Source: Acidisarcina sp. (lineage in GTDB: Bacteria; Acidobacteriota; Terriglobia; Terriglobales; Acidobacteriaceae). Taken from it: a DNA stretch of 64,000 bases. The DNA is taken from positions 434,001-498,000 of the forward strand of contig DATLIY010000009.1 in assembly GCA_035539175.1 (NCBI GenBank). The letters run 5' to 3'. The position numbers were made by a program, and so were the translations under genes. Below, in pieces: positions 3,286-62,963 of this stretch. The notes beneath the pieces are model-generated. The model ran no database searches. It was not told where the DNA came from and saw only the letters and a list, made by a program, of their open reading frames with translations. The first letter of the stretch is position 1, and every line of letters begins with the position of its first letter.

Positions 3286-3303
3286 TTGTGATTGGGATCA
3301 CAA
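3286..3303. promoter_or_regulatory. Crp/Fnr-family operator-like palindrome
   Basis: TTGTGAT-TGGG-ATCACAA is a perfect dyad containing TGTGA-N6-TCACA, the consensus bound by Crp-type dimers. It lies about 260 bases before coxB, where a promoter is expected. A Crp/Fnr-family gene and two similar sites are found near 57.3-58.2 kb. Binding is inferred. Confidence 0.6.
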
Positions 3304-51920: not shown

Positions 51921-53348
51921 CTACTGCATACCAATCTCTGTGAGCAGTTTCGGCTTCGCCTCGTCCACAGCCAACAGGTTGTGGCAGGCTGCGCAATCCT
52001 GCGTAATGGCCTGGCCGCTCTTGGCGTTGTGGCTGCCGTCATGGCAGCGGAAACAGCCAGGGTAACTGGTATGCCCAACATTGTTCGGGTGGGTTCCCCA
52101 CGTTACCTTCATATCGGGGAAGACGTTCACCTTGTAGATGGAGTACAGGGATGCCGCAGCTTGCTTGACAAGATCGGCATGAGCGGACAGAACCTCGGGG
52201 CGCTGCGAACGGTAAAAGCTCTCGAGACCCGCCTTGATCTTGGTTTCCGCGTCTGCCTGGGAAGCGTAGGTCCCCTTCAGCAGTTCAAGCCCTTCCTTAT
52301 GCACAAAAGGGAGTGTGGGGCTGATGCCGCCCTCGGCCATGATGCGGTTGACTGCGTCTTCCGGCGTCTGAAAGGTGTGAGCCGCACGGTTATGGCAATC
52401 AATGCAATCCATCACCCGCTTCTCACCCTTCACGGGGCCGGTCGCATCCGCTGACACAAACTCCGTTGTGCTGCCGTCAGGATTGCGCCTGCTTACCCAG
52501 GGAATGACCTGGCGCTGTGGGTCCGTCGAGATGTATTCGATGTGTCCGAGATGCACACCATGGATTCCCGTCAGGTGAGAGACGGAATCGCGCCCGCCCA
52601 GATGGAGCAGAACGAGGGTCTTGGTCATGGTGTTCGTTTCATCGTCGGCGAAGCTGGTCTTCACCAGCATTTTCTCTCCGATGTATTTTGCGGGTGTGTG
52701 GCAGCCCTCACAGATCTCACGTGCCGGCCGGAGACTGAGAACCGGGGAGTGAATCGGGCGCGGATAATTGTTGAGCCCTACCTCGATCAGCTGCTTAGTG
52801 CCGTTAACTTTGGCCCTCACGTAGGATCCGGCGCCTTCCCCCACGTGGCAGGCAACGCAATCTACATGGGAATGGCTCGATACTTGATATGCCGTAAATT
52901 CCGGCCGCATCACCACGTGGCAGGATTGACCACAAAATTGCGGCGTATCCATGTAGGAGACACCACGATAGCTTGCCATGCCGACGATGAGCAGATTGAC
53001 GATGGTTGCCAGCAGCACCATATCGAACGCGCGGAGCAGGACCGGATCCGCCAGGTCGATCTTTGGATAGACGCTGGGCAGCATGCCCGCTTGCTTAAGG
53101 TGCTTGCGCCTTTGATAGATTCCTATCGGGATGAGGATCAGCCCGAAGATAAACAAAACGGGCAAAATCAGAAAAAAGATAATGCCCTGATACGGGTTAA
53201 TGGCAACGTGGCCCAGAACCTGAAGGCACCAGAAACCGAGAAGCGTAAGAGCAGAGGCGCTTGTCAGTCCGGCACCGATCAAACTGATCGGGTTCTTACC
53301 CAGGTGGAAAAACGGTTGCAGCCACTTCTCTTTAAACCTGCCAGCCAC
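51921..53348 (-). CDS. NapC/NirT-like inner-membrane multiheme cytochrome c (six heme sites)
   Basis: A 475-residue protein with three hydrophobic membrane segments (about residues 23-50, 57-80 and 105-125), then a periplasmic part. Five canonical heme sites are CVACH, CEGCH, CIDCH, CFRCH and CAACH. The first heme site reads CGQSCH, that is C-x3-C-H. The segment MRPEFTAYQVSSHSHVDC is typical of NapC/NirT-type quinol dehydrogenases. It probably takes electrons from menaquinol and passes them to the small cytochrome. The start is GTG with CGGAG about ten bases upstream. It is the last gene of the conduit operon. Confidence 0.87.
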   Translation of the reverse strand: MAGRFKEKWLQPFFHLGKNPISLIGAGLTSASALTLLGFWCLQVLGHVAINPYQGIIFFLILPVLFIFGLILIPIGIYQRRKHLKQAGMLPSVYPKIDLADPVLLRAFDMVLLATIVNLLIVGMASYRGVSYMDTPQFCGQSCHVVMRPEFTAYQVSSHSHVDCVACHVGEGAGSYVRAKVNGTKQLIEVGLNNYPRPIHSPVLSLRPAREICEGCHTPAKYIGEKMLVKTSFADDETNTMTKTLVLLHLGGRDSVSHLTGIHGVHLGHIEYISTDPQRQVIPWVSRRNPDGSTTEFVSADATGPVKGEKRVMDCIDCHNRAAHTFQTPEDAVNRIMAEGGISPTLPFVHKEGLELLKGTYASQADAETKIKAGLESFYRSQRPEVLSAHADLVKQAAASLYSIYKVNVFPDMKVTWGTHPNNVGHTSYPGCFRCHDGSHNAKSGQAITQDCAACHNLLAVDEAKPKLLTEIGMQ

Positions 53349-53394
53349 GTTGCACTAACTCCGTTACTACGAATTAATGTTGCACTTCAAACAG

Positions 53395-53706
53395 TTATTT
53401 GACGAGGGATGTGTGAATATACGTCGCGACATCCTTGATCTGCGCATCGGTCAGCTTGCCATTGTAAGACGGCATCTTCCCTTTGCCATTCTTGATCACG
53501 GTGGTCATATCTGCGACAGTCGACTTGGTAAACGGTACGACCTTCATGGCCTTACCGGCAGGCGTATCGCCAGTGCCCGTGGCCCCGTGACACATCTGGC
53601 ACTTGGCTTTGTATGTTGCCTCGCCCGTACCCTGGGCGAAACTCATCGTTCCAGTTGCCAGAACCATCAGACCAAGAATCCCAAATCGCTGAATCCGGTT
53701 TGTCAT
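53395..53706 (-). CDS. Small periplasmic monoheme cytochrome c
   Basis: A 103-residue class I cytochrome c with signal peptide (cut near SFAQ). It has one heme site (CQMCH) and an axial Met region (GKGKMPSYNGKLTD). The ending DVATYIHTS is typical of the fold. It lies between the beta-barrel gene and the NapC-like gene, 46 bases before the latter, so it probably shuttles electrons between the inner-membrane and outer-membrane cytochromes. Confidence 0.92.
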   Translation of the reverse strand: MTNRIQRFGILGLMVLATGTMSFAQGTGEATYKAKCQMCHGATGTGDTPAGKAMKVVPFTKSTVADMTTVIKNGKGKMPSYNGKLTDAQIKDVATYIHTSLVK

Positions 53707-53763
53707 AAGAAAAGTTCTCCTTCTCCAAAATACGTGACCAGCATTACTTTATCAGCCCTGCTG

Positions 53764-56193
53764 TTAGAACGCATACTTCACGCCAAGGGTGTATACATTT
53801 CCACGGAAACTGCGCGGCGATGTCGGACCGATGGGTGATCCTTCTCCATAGCCGTAGTAATTCCAGTTCGCCTTCCAGGTCCACTGCGGAGCCAGGTCAA
53901 AGGCGATATTGGCATACGGCTGTTGATATTGCGACTGCAGCGATCCCGGAACCTGACGGGGATTCAGCATCGTATCGTGCCCATTGACTGCACTCATACG
54001 GTAGCCGAGGTTGGCATGCACACGCTTGACGGGCGCCAGCATAATGCTGACGGTGCCAAATTGTGTGGGAACCGAATAAATCGCCGGGGAATATACGGCT
54101 GTTGTTGTCGTGTAGATGCCGGCCGAAACCGCAGCCGCGCAACCCGTTCCGTTGACAACCGCACCCGCCGGAACCGTAGCGTCTACATAGCACACATCGG
54201 TCCGCGAGTAAACGTCGTCATAGGAGTAGCCGAAGTCCAGCGACCACTTTTCTCCAGGTGCGATCGAAGCGCCAAACGAGTAGTCGCGCGCGTGATCCAG
54301 ATGGCGGGCATCGGATACGTTGTTGCGGCTTTCGTGCAGGTTGACAGCGCCGGAAACGTTGGCCCAGGTCCTCGGTTTATACATCGCGCGCACCCGGTAG
54401 TGCTGCTGCTGGCGCGGGCTGATGCGGGTAAAGGCGTTATCCGCATACATGGCGTCGGCGTTGAAGTTGACGCGCAGTTTGTCGGTTGGCTGGAAGGAGA
54501 GTCCAAAAAGCCCACCTTGCTCGTGGATCGGAATCGTATCCGCACCACTGACTGGCGTAGGTCTCGCAGTACAGGTACCGTCCGAATTCACCGTGTTCGA
54601 AACCTTCGAGCCTACCGCACAGTCTCCGCGCTGGGCCAAGAGCGGGGTGTAGGTTTCAACTGTGGTTAAGAGCGTGGAATCGTGGATCGTCCGGGTACGA
54701 TAGCGATACCCCAGCGACAGTTTCAGCTTTGGCACTGGATCCCAATTTGCGAGAACCGTGTTGGTCTTGGCGTTCTGGCCAAGGAAGTTGTTGCTCATCG
54801 ACAACAAATTGTCCGGACCGCTCCCCTTGGCGTGATACGGGCATGTGGCTGCCGTGTACGGCGGCGGGCAGGTCGAGGGATCAAAGGTCTGCGTCGGGGA
54901 GATCAAACTCGTTCCATACAGGCTCGATTCGCTGAAGCTGTTCCCTGCCGGATCGCGGAAAGCCCAGAAATCAAAGACATCTGAGATGGCAATCTTAGGT
55001 GTCACCTGAACCGTCACACCATAATCTCCGAGTACATTGATCCGTTTGAGCGAAGCCAGGTGGCCATTTTTGCCTGTTCCTACATCGACAATCTGGCGCT
55101 GTCCGGTACGGGCAAGATAACCCTGATAGAACTCGCTGTAGTTATTGACGTCACCATTTGCGCCGGTATAAAGGATCCGGCCGTTCATGCTGACAATCCC
55201 CTCCTTACTCGAGAAGCGAAACTGTTCGGTGGGGAACAGGGTACGGGTCGGCGAGTAACGAGTATGCGCGAATTCGCCAGAGCAGGTCGGCTTGATCGTA
55301 TTGGTCGTGCCCGCGAGAACACAACTGGTGGCTGCAGGTGAAAAAATTTCGAGGCCGAGACTCACCGGAAGAGCCTGTGTCCCATTCAGAACCTGGTAAT
55401 TCAGGCCTGTGAGTTTCAGCGTTGTATCGCCCCTGTAGTGCGTTACAAACTGGTCATAGCTCAGGGTGGTGTGCGGCGTCAGCTTGAAGTCGATACCGCC
55501 AGTGAAGGAGTCAGTGCTGTTTCTCCACCATTGATTGAGAAGTGCGTCGACAGCGCTGTGAATCGTACTATAGGTCGGTCCCTCAGCAGTATTCTTCGAA
55601 TATCCGACGCGGAAACTCACTTTTGACAGTGGTAACACCGTCAGGTTCACATCCGTCATGCGGCGCACCGTATTGAAGAGGTGTGGCGTATCCAGGATGG
55701 GCACCTGAGGCACAGCCGTCGGCGGAATCAACGGGTTTGCCAGCAGATCGTAGTCAAAGTACTGCCGGTCGCGACGAAAACTGCTGTTGAACTCATAAAT
55801 CCTGCTCTTGGACATGCGCAGCATGGTGACGTTGTTCGGGTCGCCTCCATAACCAAAACTGCTGGTCATCAGGTCGTCGAAGAACGGCGTCTTTTTGCTG
55901 TCTACCGAGTGCAGATTGAGTGAATGGCTGAGGATTCGCGGGCCGCTGTGCAGGTTGACCAGCGTGTCCCACATCGCTCCGCTGCCGGAGTGATCGTCGA
56001 TATGTCCGCCAAGTTCGATGCTCTGGTGGGTGGCATAACCGCCAATAACCTTCTCCGTGGTGGGCGGCGCTTCTTGCGCACCGATTGGAAGAGTGGCGAT
56101 GGCGAGTGCCAGCGTGGAGAGCCCAGCTAAGGCGCTCCCCTGAATCCGGTTCTTGCGGCCGGTTTGCAACTTCGAAAACAAAAGATTTCTCAT
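53764..56193 (-). CDS. Large outer-membrane beta-barrel protein (MtrB/PioB-like)
   Basis: An 809-residue protein with a signal peptide (ending PIGAQ). The body has alternating hydrophobic/polar strands throughout and ends in Phe (VKYAF), the usual outer-membrane insertion signal. The size suits a barrel of about 26 strands, as in MtrB (about 700 residues) and PioB. It lacks the N-terminal CxxC pair of MtrB. Identification as MtrB/PioB-like relies on size, its terminal signature and its position 15 bases after the decaheme gene. The predicted role is a sheath holding the decaheme wire across the outer membrane. TonB-receptor features (plug, TonB box) are absent. Confidence 0.68.
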   Translation of the reverse strand: MRNLLFSKLQTGRKNRIQGSALAGLSTLALAIATLPIGAQEAPPTTEKVIGGYATHQSIELGGHIDDHSGSGAMWDTLVNLHSGPRILSHSLNLHSVDSKKTPFFDDLMTSSFGYGGDPNNVTMLRMSKSRIYEFNSSFRRDRQYFDYDLLANPLIPPTAVPQVPILDTPHLFNTVRRMTDVNLTVLPLSKVSFRVGYSKNTAEGPTYSTIHSAVDALLNQWWRNSTDSFTGGIDFKLTPHTTLSYDQFVTHYRGDTTLKLTGLNYQVLNGTQALPVSLGLEIFSPAATSCVLAGTTNTIKPTCSGEFAHTRYSPTRTLFPTEQFRFSSKEGIVSMNGRILYTGANGDVNNYSEFYQGYLARTGQRQIVDVGTGKNGHLASLKRINVLGDYGVTVQVTPKIAISDVFDFWAFRDPAGNSFSESSLYGTSLISPTQTFDPSTCPPPYTAATCPYHAKGSGPDNLLSMSNNFLGQNAKTNTVLANWDPVPKLKLSLGYRYRTRTIHDSTLLTTVETYTPLLAQRGDCAVGSKVSNTVNSDGTCTARPTPVSGADTIPIHEQGGLFGLSFQPTDKLRVNFNADAMYADNAFTRISPRQQQHYRVRAMYKPRTWANVSGAVNLHESRNNVSDARHLDHARDYSFGASIAPGEKWSLDFGYSYDDVYSRTDVCYVDATVPAGAVVNGTGCAAAVSAGIYTTTTAVYSPAIYSVPTQFGTVSIMLAPVKRVHANLGYRMSAVNGHDTMLNPRQVPGSLQSQYQQPYANIAFDLAPQWTWKANWNYYGYGEGSPIGPTSPRSFRGNVYTLGVKYAF

Positions 56194-56208
56194 TAGACTC
56201 GGCCCCCC

Positions 56209-57192
56209 TTATTTGAAGAAGAAGGAATTGGAATTGGATCCGTGAACCTGCGTGTGGCAAATCGTGCAAGCCTGATATTGAACCGCCTGATTGTGGAACG
56301 ACGGGATGCCAGGAGCCGTAAAGGAGGAAGCCGTATGGCACTGCATGCACAGCGTGTTTACATTGCTGCGCGCCAGAAGTCGCGGATTTGGCGAGCCATG
56401 AGGCGTGTGGCACGAGGTGCAACCTTCGGTCTTTACCGGGGGATGCTCATAGACAAACGGACCTGCCGTTTCGGTGTGGCACTTGACGCAGACGGCATCG
56501 CCCTGGGCAGCCGTATGCAGACCCTTTGCCTGGAAGGTTCCATGAGGATCATGGCAATCGCTGCATTTCATCAGGCCTTCGTTCACCTTGTGGTGGAAGG
56601 GCTTGGAGAAATCCGGCTTGATATCTGTGTGGCACCCGTAGCACAGCGTTGGCTGGGATGCCTTGAGCAGGTGCTCCTTTTCGCCCTGTACGTGAATCCC
56701 GTGGCAATTGAGGCAGCTTACGTTTGCCTCTCCGTGGGCGGAGCGCTCAAAGTTGGCGTGCTTCCCCTGGTGGCATCCCAGGCACTTGTCGTCAATCTGC
56801 TTGGCGTTGGCCTTGGTAAAGCGGAAGATCTTGGTCACATCTCCGCCGCCGTCGACGTGGGCCTTGCCCGCTCCGTGACAACCCTCACACGTGGCGGTTT
56901 TATCGCCGTGCATTAGCGCAATCTTGCTGTGCGGATTGCCGCCGAGTCCTTTGGCGATATCTGCGTGACAGGTAGCACATGTATCTGACCCGACATAGTC
57001 TGCCGGATTTGCCGCTGGTTGGTGAGTGGCTGCCATGGTCTGAGGCTTTGGAGCATCCTTGGCATGAGCCAAAGGACCTCCCGCAAGGCAACTGCCCAGT
57101 GTGAATGCGAGGAAACCATATGCGCCTGCACGTAGCAGACGGGCTGTAGCGTTCAATGAGTCTTCCTTCGATCTGAAGAGGGTCATGAGCAT
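56209..57192 (-). CDS. DmsE/MtrA-like decaheme c-type cytochrome
   Basis: A 327-residue exported protein with ten C-x2-C-H sites: CATCH, CEGCH, CLGCH, CLNCH, CYGCH, CSDCH, CVKCH, CTSCH, CMQCH and CTICH. Size, site number and spacing match the MtrA/DmsE/PioA class, in which hemes form a wire from periplasm into an outer-membrane barrel. Distal His ligands occur in the usual pattern (HGEANVSCLNCH). ATG at 57192 gives a good signal peptide; the frame extends to 57273 and would run into a Crp-type palindrome. It is the first gene of the four-gene minus-strand operon. Confidence 0.93.
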   Translation of the reverse strand: MLMTLFRSKEDSLNATARLLRAGAYGFLAFTLGSCLAGGPLAHAKDAPKPQTMAATHQPAANPADYVGSDTCATCHADIAKGLGGNPHSKIALMHGDKTATCEGCHGAGKAHVDGGGDVTKIFRFTKANAKQIDDKCLGCHQGKHANFERSAHGEANVSCLNCHGIHVQGEKEHLLKASQPTLCYGCHTDIKPDFSKPFHHKVNEGLMKCSDCHDPHGTFQAKGLHTAAQGDAVCVKCHTETAGPFVYEHPPVKTEGCTSCHTPHGSPNPRLLARSNVNTLCMQCHTASSFTAPGIPSFHNQAVQYQACTICHTQVHGSNSNSFFFK

Positions 57193-57274: not shown

Positions 57275-57290
57275 CGTGATGTCTGTCACA
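57275..57290. promoter_or_regulatory. Crp-type palindrome, decaheme promoter side
   Basis: CGTGA-TGTCTG-TCACA, one base from the TGTGA-N6-TCACA consensus, centred about 90 bases before the decaheme start. It is likely a control site for the conduit operon; binding is inferred. Confidence 0.55.
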
Positions 57291-57362: not shown

Positions 57363-57378
57363 TGTGAGGGCTGTCACA
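57363..57378. promoter_or_regulatory. Perfect TGTGA-N6-TCACA palindrome in the divergent promoter
   Basis: TGTGA-GGGCTG-TCACA lies about midway between the decaheme gene and the Crp/Fnr-family gene, 88 bases from the first site centre to centre. It could bind the regulator encoded next to it, giving autoregulation as well as control of the cytochromes. Confidence 0.6.
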
Positions 57379-57485
57379 GACTTCAATTTCATGGATTGCG
57401 AAAATTACTGGTTACCGTCTTCCTGCCTCCGGCCGTAAGGGAGTAGGCGAAGGGATGAGCCGCTGTGACACCAGAAGCTTTTGAC

Positions 57486-58232
57486 ATGATGTTGAGCAAG
57501 CCTGCCAGACGATCGACTCGCCGCCTGGGCCGGGAAGAGGCAGCCCTGGCTGGCTGCGCTGCCTGCCCCAATCGCAAGCCGGGATGGTTCTGCAGCCTGG
57601 GGAATGACGTTCTCGCCGATCTTGACGTAGTCAGTAACCCGATCACCGCCGCAACCGCGCAGAATGTCTTCTCTCAGGGAGACGACTCGGACCACGTCTT
57701 CGTGCTCTGTGGGGGGTATGTCAAGTTAACGGCAAGTTCCAGCCGAGGCCGCAACCTCATCGTTCGCATCGCCGGACCGGGCGCAATTCTTGGGCTTCAC
57801 GCCGCCATGTCTCAGCGCCCTTATGAAGTCTCTGCCGAAGCGCTTTCTGAAGCGCGCCTGCGCTCCATCAGCCGCGAAGATTTCATGGGGTTCCTCCGCC
57901 GCCACAAGGAGAGCCAGCTTCGTGCCGTACAGTGCGTCTGTCAGGAGTATCGCTTCGCTCTGCAGGATGCCTGCCGCATAGCTCTCACTGAATCCGTCGC
58001 TGCGCGCCTGGCACGGCTGCTCATCGAACTGGCACAGCAGATTGGGGAGTGGGATGATGGCGAGTATCATGTGCCGATCCTGCTCACGCACGAGGAGATG
58101 GCCAGCATGACCTGTACCACGCGCGAAACCATCACCCGCACCCTGGGCCAGCTTCGCAAGGAAGGAACTCTTTCAATTCACGACTCAATCCTCACCCTGC
58201 ACGACCCGGAGAAGCTGCACAGCTACTTCTGA
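57486..58232 (+). CDS. Crp/Fnr-family transcriptional regulator
   Basis: A 248-residue regulator with an N-terminal cysteine cluster (C24, C27, C36 in CAACPNRKPGWFC), a cyclic-nucleotide-type beta-roll with another Cys at 75, a dimerisation helix and a C-terminal winged helix. The recognition helix TTRETITRTLG has the Arg-Glu-Thr-x-x-Arg arrangement of Crp (RETVGR) rather than Fnr (VETISR), predicting TGTGA half-sites. The Cys equivalent to the fourth Fnr ligand is absent, so the cofactor is open. GTG at 57465 and ATG at 57486 are both possible starts. It is divergent from the cytochrome operon. Confidence 0.88.
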   Translation: MMLSKPARRSTRRLGREEAALAGCAACPNRKPGWFCSLGNDVLADLDVVSNPITAATAQNVFSQGDDSDHVFVLCGGYVKLTASSSRGRNLIVRIAGPGAILGLHAAMSQRPYEVSAEALSEARLRSISREDFMGFLRRHKESQLRAVQCVCQEYRFALQDACRIALTESVAARLARLLIELAQQIGEWDDGEYHVPILLTHEEMASMTCTTRETITRTLGQLRKEGTLSIHDSILTLHDPEKLHSYF

Positions 58233-58323: not shown

Positions 58324-59259
58324 TTAGGATAAGAGCGCTTCGCCCAGGACGCTGGCTCGCAGGCTCTCTCTATCCAGGCCGCTGTGCAGGGTAATGACGG
58401 GACAGCACGTCTGGGTAACAATCCTGTAAATCAGCCCCTGATGGAGGCCACCCACTGGCTTTCTTCGCAGATCTTCCTGCTGCACGGCAAGAACAATGGC
58501 CACCGCCCCAATGGAGGCAGCTACAGAAGCGATCGTCTCTCCAAGCTGCCCATGCTGCACCAGGCAATGCACCCGCTGGGTCAGCTGAACCTGCGTTCTT
58601 GCCATCTGCTCCAGCTTCTCCATCGCTCTCCGGACGCTTTCCGGACGGTCCGCCGCCGGCAGCGCAACGTGTAACAGATGCAGTTCTGCACCCAGGTAGT
58701 GCGCCATAGCGTCCGCAAACGGAAGCGCACCAATCGAATGCGTTGAGAATCCCGTGGCGAACAAAAGCCGTGGCGATTTTGTGCCCAGCGGGATGGATGG
58801 CATGGCATTCGATCCCACAGTCATGACCGGGCAAGGCGCAACCCGCAAGATCTTTTCGGCAACGGATCCGACGACGTCGCGATCGAATCGGCTTTCGCCA
58901 TGGGTACCGATGACCAGCAGGGACGCGCCGTACTCCTCCACCAAATCGCATAGGGCATCGCGAATCATTCCTTCGCGCACTACCAGCTCATAAGGAATCC
59001 GTTCGCGCCGCAAGAGGGATGCAGCCATCTCCAGCCGCGCCTTCGCATTCTGCTCAATCTGGCGCGGGACAAATGGCGCGCCATTCAGGGAGTTGGAGTA
59101 AAACAGGGGATCTATCACATGGGCCAGAATGACCCTCGACTGCAGACTACGCGCCATCTCCACCGCTTTCAGCAGCGCGCGCTCTGCAAAAGGAGAGAAA
59201 TCCGTCGCAACCACTATGGTTTCGAAACCGAGGGGGACACCACGCCCACTGGACCGCAT
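58324..59259 (-). CDS. Universal stress protein, two UspA domains
   Basis: A 311-residue tandem UspA protein. The first domain keeps the ATP-binding motif G-x2-G-x9-G-S (GTHGESRFDRDVVGS) and starts IVVATDFSPFAERAL; the second is degenerate. Such proteins respond to starvation, redox or oxygen stress. A TTG at 59271 is an alternative start. It lies between the Crp/Fnr-family gene and another Usp gene, on the opposite strand to the regulator. Confidence 0.88.
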   Translation of the reverse strand: MRSSGRGVPLGFETIVVATDFSPFAERALLKAVEMARSLQSRVILAHVIDPLFYSNSLNGAPFVPRQIEQNAKARLEMAASLLRRERIPYELVVREGMIRDALCDLVEEYGASLLVIGTHGESRFDRDVVGSVAEKILRVAPCPVMTVGSNAMPSIPLGTKSPRLLFATGFSTHSIGALPFADAMAHYLGAELHLLHVALPAADRPESVRRAMEKLEQMARTQVQLTQRVHCLVQHGQLGETIASVAASIGAVAIVLAVQQEDLRRKPVGGLHQGLIYRIVTQTCCPVITLHSGLDRESLRASVLGEALLS

Positions 59260-59458
59260 ACCTGCCCCCAAACCTGAATTATCTTTCTGTGAACTGTAGG
59301 TTGATGATGCAGCCTCCGCGCTACGCGTTGCCCCTCAAAAAAATAAAAGGTCGCTTCCACGAAGGGTTGTTGCCCTGGCAGTCTATCGCCCTGCTGCCAG
59401 ATTTCAGATTCGGTGCGGCACCTTTTCGAGAGGGACCGCACGCCTGCAAACGCAGGTT

Positions 59459-60409
59459 CTAACTCGCCTTGGTCGCACCTGCGTGTTCGGGTTCGAACTT
59501 TCTTGCCTCCCTGGCCATAGCAGCGGGAGACAACGTCAACACCGGGCAAGGAGCGTGCGCCAGAACCTTATACACGACTCCATGCCTGGTCAGGGTGGCA
59601 ACCACCGAGGCTTCCTGCGCACCAAGGACCATAAGATCCACATGCTGCGACTTCGCCTGGAAGAGAATTTCCTCAGGGGGCTCGCCCAACACAACCATGG
59701 GTTCAATCACGAGTTGCGAACGCAGCTCTATGGGGATCAAAGACTTAACATCTTCCTCAATCTGCTGAATCGTCCTGCGCGCGAGCAGTTCCGCGCTCTC
59801 CGATGGCTTCATCACATGGAGCAGCAGCAGCCGCGCACCGGCGTGCAAAGCAACTTCCGCAGCCAGCGCCACCGGTCCAAAGCAGGACTCGCCGAGCGAC
59901 GTCGCGCAGAGAACGTTTTTGATCCGGTAACCGTCAAACGCCTTATTGACTACTTCCGGCCCCACCACGTAGACGGGGACGTCCGAGGAGCGAAGCACCT
60001 CTTCGGCTACCGAGCCGAGAAGAATCTTCCCAATGGGGCCCGGGCAGCGGGTTCCCACGACGATGCGATCGGCGTTCTTCTCGTGCGCGCAGTCCACGAT
60101 CATACGAGGCGCAAGTCCTTGGCGGACAATGATTTCGCATTCAATTCCCGCCGCTTGAGCCTTTTCTGCAAAGGGCTCAAGGTGCCTGGTTTCTGTCTTC
60201 GCCGCCGCGGCATAGTCGTAATAGCGCAGCCCGCTGGTTTCAGAGGCGGAGACGACCAGGGTGTCGTATGCATGGAAGAGGATGAGCTTGGCTTTCGTTT
60301 CTTTCGCCTGCGCGAGGGCGAAGGCAAATACCAGGTCATTCACCGGTATTTCTGTTGCAAGCAGGATTGTCTGGGGGACACTCCAGCGCTGATTCGTCAG
60401 AGGGGTCAT
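59459..60409 (-). CDS. Universal stress protein, two UspA domains (divergent)
   Basis: A 316-residue tandem UspA protein. The first domain begins QTILLATEIPVNDLVFAFAL and has GTRCPGPIGKILLGSVAEEVL, which departs from the ATP motif at the second Gly (Cys instead); the second domain has VLCATSLGESCFGPVALA. The chosen ATG at 60409 is strongly supported by GTAGGAGG six bases upstream, although the frame runs to 60472. It is near cydAB and may be co-controlled with low-oxygen respiration. Confidence 0.87.
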   Translation of the reverse strand: MTPLTNQRWSVPQTILLATEIPVNDLVFAFALAQAKETKAKLILFHAYDTLVVSASETSGLRYYDYAAAAKTETRHLEPFAEKAQAAGIECEIIVRQGLAPRMIVDCAHEKNADRIVVGTRCPGPIGKILLGSVAEEVLRSSDVPVYVVGPEVVNKAFDGYRIKNVLCATSLGESCFGPVALAAEVALHAGARLLLLHVMKPSESAELLARRTIQQIEEDVKSLIPIELRSQLVIEPMVVLGEPPEEILFQAKSQHVDLMVLGAQEASVVATLTRHGVVYKVLAHAPCPVLTLSPAAMAREARKFEPEHAGATKAS

Positions 60410-60554
60410 AAGAAACCTCCTACGGGCGCAACGATGGCACTCGTAGGAGATTCTAGCAGTGCGGCAGGGCACAAGTCATTGTGATAAGAGCTGCTCTAAA
60501 TCGATAAAATAATGCTTCTATCAAAATGAAAAACAGCGCCACTTCGAATGGCCT

Positions 60555-61601
60555 TTAATGGCCGTATCCCGTGGAACTTACATCCACTTTCCCGCGGAAC
60601 ATCCGGTAGATGAACACGAAATACCCGATGGCCAGCGCCATCCCGAATGCCCACCAGACCAATCCGACATGTAGTGTGTGAGGACCAGACAGCGCCTTGT
60701 CGATGGTGATGTTGAGATTCGAATCCGTGCTCGACGGCATCAGTGTTGGATAGAGACCGCTGACCGCTCCCACCATCATGAAGACGAGATATCCAGCCGA
60801 GCAGAGGAATGCGGTGAAGTCGCGCCCGACGCGGCTGAAGGAAAGAATGCCTGCCAGGCACGCCACCACCAGCACCGGAATCGCGAAGGCAATCGGATAT
60901 GCGTAGTAGTTGTGCAGGCTGCCGGGGCGCACCGCGACGGTAGCAATCAGGCTGATGATCGTCAGCAGCACCAGCGCTGCCCACAGCGGGCGGACGATGG
61001 CGCGAGCCCGTTGCTGCAGAGCCCCCTCCGTCTTCACCGCCAGATACAGCGCTCCATGCAGCGTCAGTGCCACCAGCGCAACCAGGCCGCCGATCACGGT
61101 GTACCAGTCCAGAATGCCGGGATTGGGGCCTACCTTCCAATTCGTCCATAGCGGCAGGAAGAAGTAGGAGTCCGAGCCCAGCGGCACGCCGCGAATCACA
61201 TTCGCCAGAGCCGCTCCGTAGAAGATGATCAGCAGCGCGCTCGAGAAGCTGAACAGCCCATCAAAAAAGCTGCGCCAAACGTTGAGAGTTAAGTGACCGC
61301 GCAACTCCACGCTCACCCCGCGCAGGATGAGCAGCCAGAGCACGATCATCAACGGCAGATAGAAGCCGCTGAAGGCCGACGCATACAGCAGCGGAAAGGC
61401 GAAGTACAGAGTGCCGCCAGCCGCCAGCAGCCAAACCTCGTTACCATCCCACACCGGGCCAATTGCGCGGATCGTCATTTGACGCTCCGCGTCATTGCGC
61501 GTCAACAACAGGTGGAGCACTCCTACGCCAAGGTCGAATCCGTCGAGCACCACATAGCCGACGAGCATGATTGCAACCAGCCAGAACCAGATAAATCCCA
61601 T
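60555..61601 (-). CDS. cydB: Cytochrome bd quinol oxidase subunit II
   Basis: A 348-residue integral membrane subunit with about nine helices. The N-terminus MGFIWFWLVAIMLVGYVVLDGFDLGVG and the IGPVWDGNEVWLLAAGG segment are family signatures. It pairs with CydA to form the bd oxidase, which oxidises quinol and reduces O2 with high affinity without proton pumping. It lies 15 bases after cydA. Confidence 0.95.
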   Translation of the reverse strand: MGFIWFWLVAIMLVGYVVLDGFDLGVGVLHLLLTRNDAERQMTIRAIGPVWDGNEVWLLAAGGTLYFAFPLLYASAFSGFYLPLMIVLWLLILRGVSVELRGHLTLNVWRSFFDGLFSFSSALLIIFYGAALANVIRGVPLGSDSYFFLPLWTNWKVGPNPGILDWYTVIGGLVALVALTLHGALYLAVKTEGALQQRARAIVRPLWAALVLLTIISLIATVAVRPGSLHNYYAYPIAFAIPVLVVACLAGILSFSRVGRDFTAFLCSAGYLVFMMVGAVSGLYPTLMPSSTDSNLNITIDKALSGPHTLHVGLVWWAFGMALAIGYFVFIYRMFRGKVDVSSTGYGH

Positions 61602-61616
61602 CTCCGCACCTTCCGC

Positions 61617-62963
61617 TTAGTTGACCGTTACCGTCGAGGGGGCCGCTTCCTTGTGCGGACCATGCTGGATCTCTCGATACACCAGAACCAGGAACAAGAT
61701 CGAAAGCACAACGTAGAGCCCCATAAAGCCCAGCAGCGTGAACAGGCTGTTGCTCGCCGACACATACTTGGAGTAGCCCTGTTCGGTGCGCATCAGCCCG
61801 TAAACCACCCATGGCTGACGCCCAATCTCCGCCGTCATCCATCCCGCCGTATTGGCGATGTATGGCAGCGGGAAGCTCAGCATCAGCGGCCACTGGATCC
61901 ATCTCGTCGTGTATAACTTGCCGCGCCACAGCAGAAACGCGGCCAGCAGCATCACGGCTACGAAATACGTCCCCAATCCGGCCATGATGTGGTACGCGTA
62001 GAAGAGAAGCGGCAGAGTTGTCGGCCACTGGTCTTGCGGAAAGTGGTCCAGTCCCTGCACCTCTGCCTTGGTCGTGCCATAGATCAGAAAGCTCAGCAGG
62101 TTATTCACCACGATGGGATTGTCCACTTTGCCGCTGGCATAGTCCGGCTGCCCCACCAACACCACATCGGCGCCCTTTGCGGAGTGGAAGAGCCCTTCCA
62201 TTGCCGCCATGCTCACCGGCTGATGGTGGGCTACATATTTACCGTGCAGGTCGCCAGTGGGGAAGATCATGGCCGTGCATGCAATCGCTCCGGCGATGAC
62301 TCCCGTCTTGAGGAAGATGCGGCCGTACTCCTGGAATTGCTTCTCCAGCATGTAGAACGCGCCCACTGCTGTCATCACAAAGGCCGCGGTCACCACGGCT
62401 CCGCACATATTGTGGGCATACTGCAGGAGTGCCCACGGATTCAGCAGCAGCTTCCAGAAGCTGGTCACTTCATACTGCCCGTTGGCCATCATCCGGTACG
62501 CCACCGGATGCTGCATCCATGCGTCCGTCACGATGATGAAAAATCCCGAAAGCCATGAGCCGAAGAACACCATGAACGCGGAGAACCAGTGCATCGTCTT
62601 CGACACACGCTTTTCTCCATAGAGCAGCAGGCCCAGGAACGCCGATTCGAGGAAGAAGGAGAAGACTCCTTCCATCGCCAGCGGTTGCCCGATAACTCCG
62701 CCTGTCAGACGGGCAAAGTGTGACCAGTTGGTTCCGAATTCGAACTCCATCGGAATACCCGTCACGACGCCCATCACAAAATTAATTCCGAAAATCTTGC
62801 CCCAGAATCGTGCTGCTTCGTTATAGCGCTCATCGTTGCGCCGGAGGCCGATGGTCTTGAGCACAAGGATGAGCAGGGCCAGGCCCATCGTGAGTTGAGG
62901 AAAGAGGTAGTGATATGTGATAGTGAACGCAAAATGAAGACGGTGCAGCGTTAACGCATCCAT
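61617..62963 (-). CDS. cydA: Cytochrome bd quinol oxidase subunit I
   Basis: A 448-residue catalytic subunit holding three hemes. It has the N-terminal LHRLHFAFTITYHYLFPQLTMG segment with the heme d/b595 His, the GRQPWVVYGLMRT motif and a short Q-loop after LFHSAKGADVVLVG, placing it in the short-loop class (E. coli CydA is about 520 residues). It functions in the cytoplasmic membrane for microaerobic or stress respiration. It is the first gene of cydAB. Confidence 0.96.
   Translation of the reverse strand: MDALTLHRLHFAFTITYHYLFPQLTMGLALLILVLKTIGLRRNDERYNEAARFWGKIFGINFVMGVVTGIPMEFEFGTNWSHFARLTGGVIGQPLAMEGVFSFFLESAFLGLLLYGEKRVSKTMHWFSAFMVFFGSWLSGFFIIVTDAWMQHPVAYRMMANGQYEVTSFWKLLLNPWALLQYAHNMCGAVVTAAFVMTAVGAFYMLEKQFQEYGRIFLKTGVIAGAIACTAMIFPTGDLHGKYVAHHQPVSMAAMEGLFHSAKGADVVLVGQPDYASGKVDNPIVVNNLLSFLIYGTTKAEVQGLDHFPQDQWPTTLPLLFYAYHIMAGLGTYFVAVMLLAAFLLWRGKLYTTRWIQWPLMLSFPLPYIANTAGWMTAEIGRQPWVVYGLMRTEQGYSKYVSASNSLFTLLGFMGLYVVLSILFLVLVYREIQHGPHKEAAPSTVTVN

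Follow-up and report, generated by a model that had tools for sequence, protein, structure and literature searches.

In a 64,000-nucleotide stretch of DNA from Acidisarcina sp. (Acidobacteriota), hereafter the window, we identified a four-gene operon that probably moves electrons across the whole cell envelope, outward from the quinol pool and through a decaheme cytochrome lodged in an outer membrane barrel. The window is part of contig C9; the genome, of 3.9 Mb, has a completeness of 99.96%. The four genes lie on the minus strand (51921-57192) in the order decaheme c-type cytochrome (56209..57192; 327 aa, 10 CXXCH), outer membrane beta barrel with a predicted MtrB fold (53764..56193; 809 aa, no CXXCH, C-terminal Phe), small monoheme cytochrome c with a signal-like N-terminus (53395..53706; 103 aa) and ImcH-type membrane cytochrome (51921..53348; 475 aa, GTG start), with gaps of 15, 57 and 46 bases between them. 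An earlier note made from the sequence had described closely spaced genes for an MtrA/DmsE-like decaheme, a large barrel ending in Phe, a monoheme cytochrome and a membrane cytochrome on this strand, and the gene calls and domain searches bore out that layout. The monoheme protein matched PF13442 at 58.8 bits, its nearest solved chains being cytochrome c6 and CcoP, while an Rfam scan of the window gave no match. The arrangement is more than a chance run, since the decaheme, barrel and ImcH-type genes are collinear in 22 of the 55 loci that we compared in relatives.

The decaheme protein is a member of the MtrA/DmsE family. In addition to its ten CXXCH motifs, it scored 262.9 bits against the DmsE family model TIGR03508 (cut-off 192.2), and a phmmer search matched it at E 4.7e-39 to 6r2q_A, a multiheme chain in the Mtr complex entry that is labelled cystathionine beta-synthase in the file. 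The match to NF041028 reached 222.5 bits, i.e., it fell below the cut-off of 325. Such decahemes are common, with TIGR03508 over its cut-off in 159 of 396 genomes of the phylum.

By sequence, the barrel is nearly an orphan. It matched NF041027 weakly (24 bits; cut-off 350), and we therefore rejected it as a member of the GSU2204 family proper; a match to PF13505 was also sub-threshold (24.1 bits; cut-off 28.7). The barrel falls outside the MtrB/PioB sequence family as well. TIGR03509, a model for which no control scored over cut-off, had no match at E <= 10 in the window's genome, and PF11854 had none there at E <= 1. The latter model works, being over cut-off in three of 13 genomes scanned, none of them among the eight that belong to this order. 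It was over cut-off in none of the seven tested genomes that carry a window-type barrel, and surveys relying on PF11854 would therefore miss these. In the genome G110, a PF11854 match of 21.9 bits (cut-off 23) lay far from that genome's operon. Searches of the PDB with the barrel gave no match at E <= 1 by sequence and a best E of 0.32 by profile.

The mature barrel was aligned with 25 rows from loci found in a scan of named genomes, some of them clipped by contig ends, and its structure was predicted. The model (mean predicted local distance difference test score, pLDDT, of 74) contained 26 membrane strands by a hand count that omitted four short strand pieces, which is the strand number given for MtrB in the available text of PMC7198977. 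Foldseek searches of the PDB placed MtrB (6r2q_B) first (E 5.5e-12, TM-score 0.59), followed by siderophore receptors (E 1.6e-10 and weaker, TM-score <= 0.40 in the rows listed). With VIA-align, 569 residues could be aligned with 6r2q_B (Z 19.9, root mean square deviation 4.0, 11% identity), compared with just 253 in the second row (Z 15.8); numerous further barrels were listed with Z 13.6-15.8 and 212-311 aligned residues, which we read as a sign of shared barrel geometry. The barrel is thus predicted to have the MtrB fold within a sequence family that is missed by the standard models. Were it instead a common porin or transporter for nutrients, placed by chance beside periplasmic cytochromes, the lack of a match to any MtrB/PioB sequence model would be readily accommodated, as would the small difference in Foldseek E-value between MtrB and the siderophore receptors. 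The predicted structure, however, most resembles MtrB and not a transporter, both in TM-score and in the extent of the aligned region, and the position of the barrel beside the decaheme is conserved, with a canonical MtrB occupying that slot in one locus (L193, below). We consider a chance porin highly improbable.

The fourth gene had been described in the earlier note as encoding a hexaheme NapC-like membrane cytochrome. Its six heme motifs and its relationship to NapC were upheld (PF03264 NapC/NirT, 41.2 bits; cut-off 24.1), and the assignment could be refined to the architecture of ImcH. The protein has three N-terminal hydrophobic helices, beside which lies a single CX3CH that is followed by five CX2CH motifs. 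ImcH homologues are described as having three helices, an atypical CX3CH first heme and further CX2CH motifs (PMC6295460), with 6-10 hemes in total according to an excerpt of the same paper. Exactly one CX3CH was present in all 69 homologues tallied, and five to seven CX2CH in 65 of them, the remaining four having fewer; by a crude hydropathy count, 58 of the homologues have three helices, 8 have two and 3 have four. The window protein shares 50.6% identity over 474 aa with its counterpart in a genome that is putatively that of Acidobacterium capsulatum ATCC 51196 (G084, locus L071), where this is the single match at E <= 1e-20. As A. capsulatum ImcH served as a search template in the portion of PMC6295460 available, the sequence comparison points through this copy to homology with an accepted ImcH. 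The window's genome contains just one ImcH-type match, i.e., the one in the operon. By analogy, an ImcH architecture would favour quinol oxidation, and hence an outward flow of electrons.

To compare gene order, we collected all ImcH-type places outside the window's genome, counting fragments of one gene once, which gave 55 loci in 53 genomes; within the order, 54 of 120 genomes have an ImcH-type gene. The 22 loci in which decaheme, barrel and ImcH-type gene are collinear come from ten genera of one family, and 20 of them have at least one monoheme gene. Five more loci have a barrel at the edge of the region or contig, with the decaheme out of view. The barrel of L051 is split in two frames and the decaheme of L095 is cut. 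In the putative A. capsulatum locus, the ImcH-type gene stands directly behind decaheme, barrel and monoheme. From the scan of named genomes we examined the best 80 of 331 confirmed loci, many of which are clipped by contig ends. An ImcH-type gene was present in 14 of these, on the strand of the decaheme in nine; 12 of the 14 loci come from metagenome-assembled genomes (MAGs) titled Acidobacteria or subgroups thereof, including five titled Pyrinomonadaceae or Blastocatellia, and two from MAGs titled Deltaproteobacteria. The tight order of the window recurs among them in L208 and L193 only, both outside this order of bacteria. The most telling locus is L193, a deltaproteobacterial contig in which the window's slots are filled by a decaheme, a canonical MtrB as barrel (PF11854, 249 bits), a monoheme and a three-helix ImcH-type gene that is clipped by the contig end. 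The earlier note had interpreted the gene set as a candidate porin-cytochrome conduit, and had named a transporter fold for the barrel and an unconserved gene order as findings that would speak against it. Neither was encountered in the predicted structure of the barrel or in the loci compared, and the conduit interpretation is supported.

Divergent from the operon, on the plus strand, lies a gene for a Crp/Fnr-family regulator (57465..58232; PF13545 and PF00027) with an N-terminal CxxC-x8-C and the reading helix RETITR. We take the cysteine cluster to resemble that of Fnr-type sensors, and the reading helix to be close to that of Crp. Ten of the 22 collinear loci, all belonging to one genus, have a relative of the regulator scoring more than 250 bits next to the operon, and every one of these relatives retains the cluster and a reading helix with RETVTR. 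Between the regulator and the decaheme gene are two palindromes, TGTGACAGACATCACG (57275..57290) and a perfect TGTGA-N6-TCACA (57363..57378). Across both strands of the window, the pattern TGTGA-N6-TCACR had six matches at four places, compared with 0.29 expected from shuffles. The remaining two places are 56874, within the decaheme gene, and 3287-3302, where a perfect TGTGA-N6-TCACA lies upstream of an operon for cytochrome c oxidase (COX2, COX1, COX3, Rieske), which suggests a shared regulator for the oxidase and decaheme operons.

Relatives were searched with a regular expression wider than the window pattern, with the background computed by the same expression and gene starts estimated. 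Of the 24 relatives listed, one of which has no upstream sequence, 10 had a site in the roughly 500 bases preceding the decaheme, against an expectation of about 0.04 per relative; the binomial probability of 9e-9 overstates the case because it treats the relatives as independent. As these sites span seven genera and the regulator only one, the site has been retained across a broader range of relatives than the regulator beside the operon. Just past the regulator, on the minus strand, are two tandem universal stress protein genes and a cydAB-type oxidase (58324-62963).

In the pathway that we propose, the ImcH-type protein would take electrons from the inner membrane quinol pool, and the monoheme cytochrome, perhaps together with others, would shuttle them over the periplasm. 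The decaheme would serve as a wire within the 26-stranded barrel and pass the electrons through the outer membrane to an external acceptor, whether Fe(III), humic matter or something else. No surface cytochrome of the MtrC type was found. The neighbouring regulator, as a putative redox or oxygen sensor, would probably switch the operon. We infer that the flow is outward because ImcH homologues have been implicated in quinol oxidation only (PMC6295460) and because A. capsulatum is reported, in the available text of PMC8790237, to reduce iron under micro-aerobic conditions. The same two points stand against a conduit that runs inward, in the manner of mtoABD-cymA or pioABC, and feeds the quinone pool or the oxidases with electrons drawn from Fe(II), a mineral or a partner cell. 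Such a conduit would be in keeping with the gene content, since a decaheme, a barrel, a monoheme and a NapC-type protein also make up mtoABD-cymA in the part of PMC10654088 available, and with the palindrome at 3287 that the terminal oxidase operon of the window shares. On balance, we regard inward flow as unlikely.

Several observations weigh against an outward conduit of this kind. No MtrC/OmcA-family protein was found anywhere in the genome (TIGR03507, no match at E <= 0.1), although the model was over cut-off in none of 14 control genomes and thus had no positive control. As far as this model can tell, the absence of MtrC that the earlier note had reported for its field of view extends to the whole genome, and an MtrC-type surface partner was rejected. 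The ImcH-type gene has no decaheme-barrel pair beside it in 28 of the 55 loci, including L048, where the decaheme is shortened, and L089, where a decaheme but no barrel was seen; three of the 28, L066, L068 and L069, have only a monoheme gene next to it. The ImcH-type protein therefore has other partners as well, in many cases an 11-heme protein. Of the 22 collinear loci, half (11) belong to a single genus. Among the 14 named-genome loci, five have the ImcH-type gene on the opposite strand to the decaheme, and in most the two are 2-9 kb apart. Finally, the barrel shares only 10-11% identity with MtrB, and Geobacter ImcH was compared by its published description and not by sequence. As a separate observation, L078-L094 and other loci have 11-heme (~670 aa) or 19-heme (~700 aa) proteins beside the ImcH-type gene, replacing the decaheme-barrel pair.

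DMSO-type reduction, which had been raised as a possible direction in the earlier note, is unlikely and was rejected: no protein of the genome reaches the DmsA cut-off (TIGR02166, best 253.5 bits; cut-off 777.7), the matches lying at four places, none of them inside the window. With neither MtrC/OmcA nor DmsA over cut-off, contact with the acceptor would therefore fall to the decaheme itself, to a soluble shuttle or to some protein that the searches do not recognise. Near the ImcH-type genes of relatives we counted 34 extra multiheme proteins (9-19 hemes), ten of which have a lipobox-like string. This string follows a hydrophobic N-terminus in two of them, a 9-heme protein in L074 and an 11-heme protein in L090, and several of the others fall on a heme motif. 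To judge from their N-termini, the L074 and L090 proteins could be lipoproteins; we claim none as a surface protein.

A search of the genome for the decaheme turned up two further close relatives, one in a paralogous decaheme-barrel pair on contig C3 and the other on contig C8 (below). The C3 pair (L010:9215-13941) has 54% and 43-46% identity to the window genes and is followed on the same strand by two Cu/Zn superoxide dismutase genes. This neighbourhood would suit a more modest role in which the operon carries out small-scale redox work at the surface and not mineral respiration, i.e., reductive mobilisation of iron, removal of oxidants, or disposal of surplus electrons onto dissolved humics. 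Also in line with such a role are the lack of a surface cytochrome in the genome and the small number of open frames, just six genome-wide, that match PF09699. The superoxide dismutase genes, however, are away from the window's operon, and entry from the quinol pool through an ImcH-type protein, next to a Crp/Fnr-type regulator, suits a respiratory chain better. We judge small-scale surface work to be quite improbable, and retain export of electrons from the quinol pool as the probable function.

The same genome contains, on contig C8 (L011:9943-13212), a single reading frame of 1089 codons, ending in Trp, in which a decaheme and a barrel are fused. A decaheme makes up the first third (NF041028, 222.8 bits; TIGR03508, 215.5 bits and over cut-off), and the remainder is a barrel that matched NF041027 below its cut-off (42.1 bits, residues 404-618) and carries one further heme motif. 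An assembly slip is unlikely. The barrel half was matched in 12 of 299 genomes of the class, nine of which, from three families, have the full fusion; of the others, G035 encodes each part in a gene of its own, and two have short frames only. The scan of named genomes, which overlaps the class set, yielded at least 28 single-frame fusion loci in 25 MAGs, of which three are clipped by contig ends and some are nearly identical; L170, which is in two frames, was excluded. All 28 loci have the layout of ten plus one heme motifs, the last being CX2CH or CX3CH. In L166, L172, L175 and L177, among others, the decaheme and barrel parts are encoded by two genes side by side. The fusion suggests that the decaheme and barrel halves act as one unit. 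We also entertain, tentatively and with slightly more doubt than confidence, that Acidobacteria may have evolved a one-gene outer membrane conduit, composed of a decaheme and an MtrB-type barrel with an eleventh heme motif and working with no surface cytochrome, of which the window operon would be the multi-gene counterpart that starts at the quinol pool. A structure model, made for the L144 fusion and not for the C8 protein, had a pLDDT of 48.8 and left the decaheme part unplaced, a point against the pathway proposed for the operon. Its top Foldseek match was MtrB (E 1.4e-13), but VIA-align ranked MtrB ninth (Z 12.5) and BtuB first (Z 14.2), and the quality of the model is too low for it to be relied on.

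The neighbours of the fusion are not conserved, with the top shared family present in 4 of 29 fusion loci, many of which are on short contigs. No palindrome of the operon type was found upstream of either the C3 pair or the C8 fusion. A few of the fusion MAGs carry names (palsa, Chersky) that, by the names alone, suggest peat or permafrost. Elsewhere in the genome, contig C7 (L012:6820-8073) encodes an eight-heme cytochrome that matches PF13447, with a hydrazine dehydrogenase-like match far under that model's cut-off.

The operon is made up of parts of known kinds, and is kept apart here from the MtrB/PioB sequence family and from Mtr systems that have MtrC or DmsAB. With MtrAB/DmsEF of Shewanella it shares the TIGR03508 decaheme family and the predicted 26-strand MtrB fold; it differs in that its genome has no MtrC-family or DmsA match over cut-off, its barrel is outside the MtrB sequence models and its quinol protein is ImcH-type, not CymA. 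The mtoABD-cymA set of Sideroxydans has like parts, i.e., decaheme, barrel, monoheme and NapC-type quinone protein, and according to the available part of PMC10654088 contains a tetraheme CymA in place of the three-helix, six-heme ImcH-type protein, with Mto being assigned to Fe(II) oxidation. As regards GSU2203-GSU2204 of Geobacter, there is a good match of the decaheme to NF041028 and a weak one of the barrel to NF041027, both under the cut-offs, and the barrel lacks the CXXCH named in the description of NF041027. Cyc2 resembles the C8 fusion in combining cytochrome and porin in one chain, but has one heme (excerpt of PMC10734462) and about 17 strands (excerpt of PMC10654088), whereas the fusion combines a decaheme domain with one more heme motif in its barrel part.

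Decaheme or mtrA/mtrB homologues in Acidobacteria have already been published, as the available portions of PMC3669403, PMC5900883, PMC7399161 and PMC10654088 attest; an earlier genome survey reported mtrA/mtrB homologues and, in the text available, no complete mtr/omc operon (PMC5900883). Geobacter ImcH and its acidobacterial homologues (PMC6295460) share with the window protein the three helices, the CX3CH first heme and the further CX2CH motifs; the window gene differs in standing in one operon with an MtrA/MtrB-type pair. That 2018 survey found no mtrAB or mtoAB adjacent to imcH (PMC6295460). PF11854 has no match in the putative A. capsulatum genome, and our own explanation is that this may be why the link between mtrAB and imcH was missed. 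As far as our searches can tell, the open-access literature searched holds no description of an ImcH-type gene sharing an operon with an MtrA/MtrB-type pair, nor of a decaheme and a barrel in a single chain.

Acidobacteria are among the commonest soil bacteria. Some of them reduce iron, and the conserved operon described here groups the genes of a candidate route that leads from the quinol pool as far as the outer membrane. The single-chain fusion would be a simple component for engineering electron transfer, and would serve as a natural test of the requirements of a conduit. Since the same operon is present in the putative genome of A. capsulatum, a cultured species, the question is directly testable.

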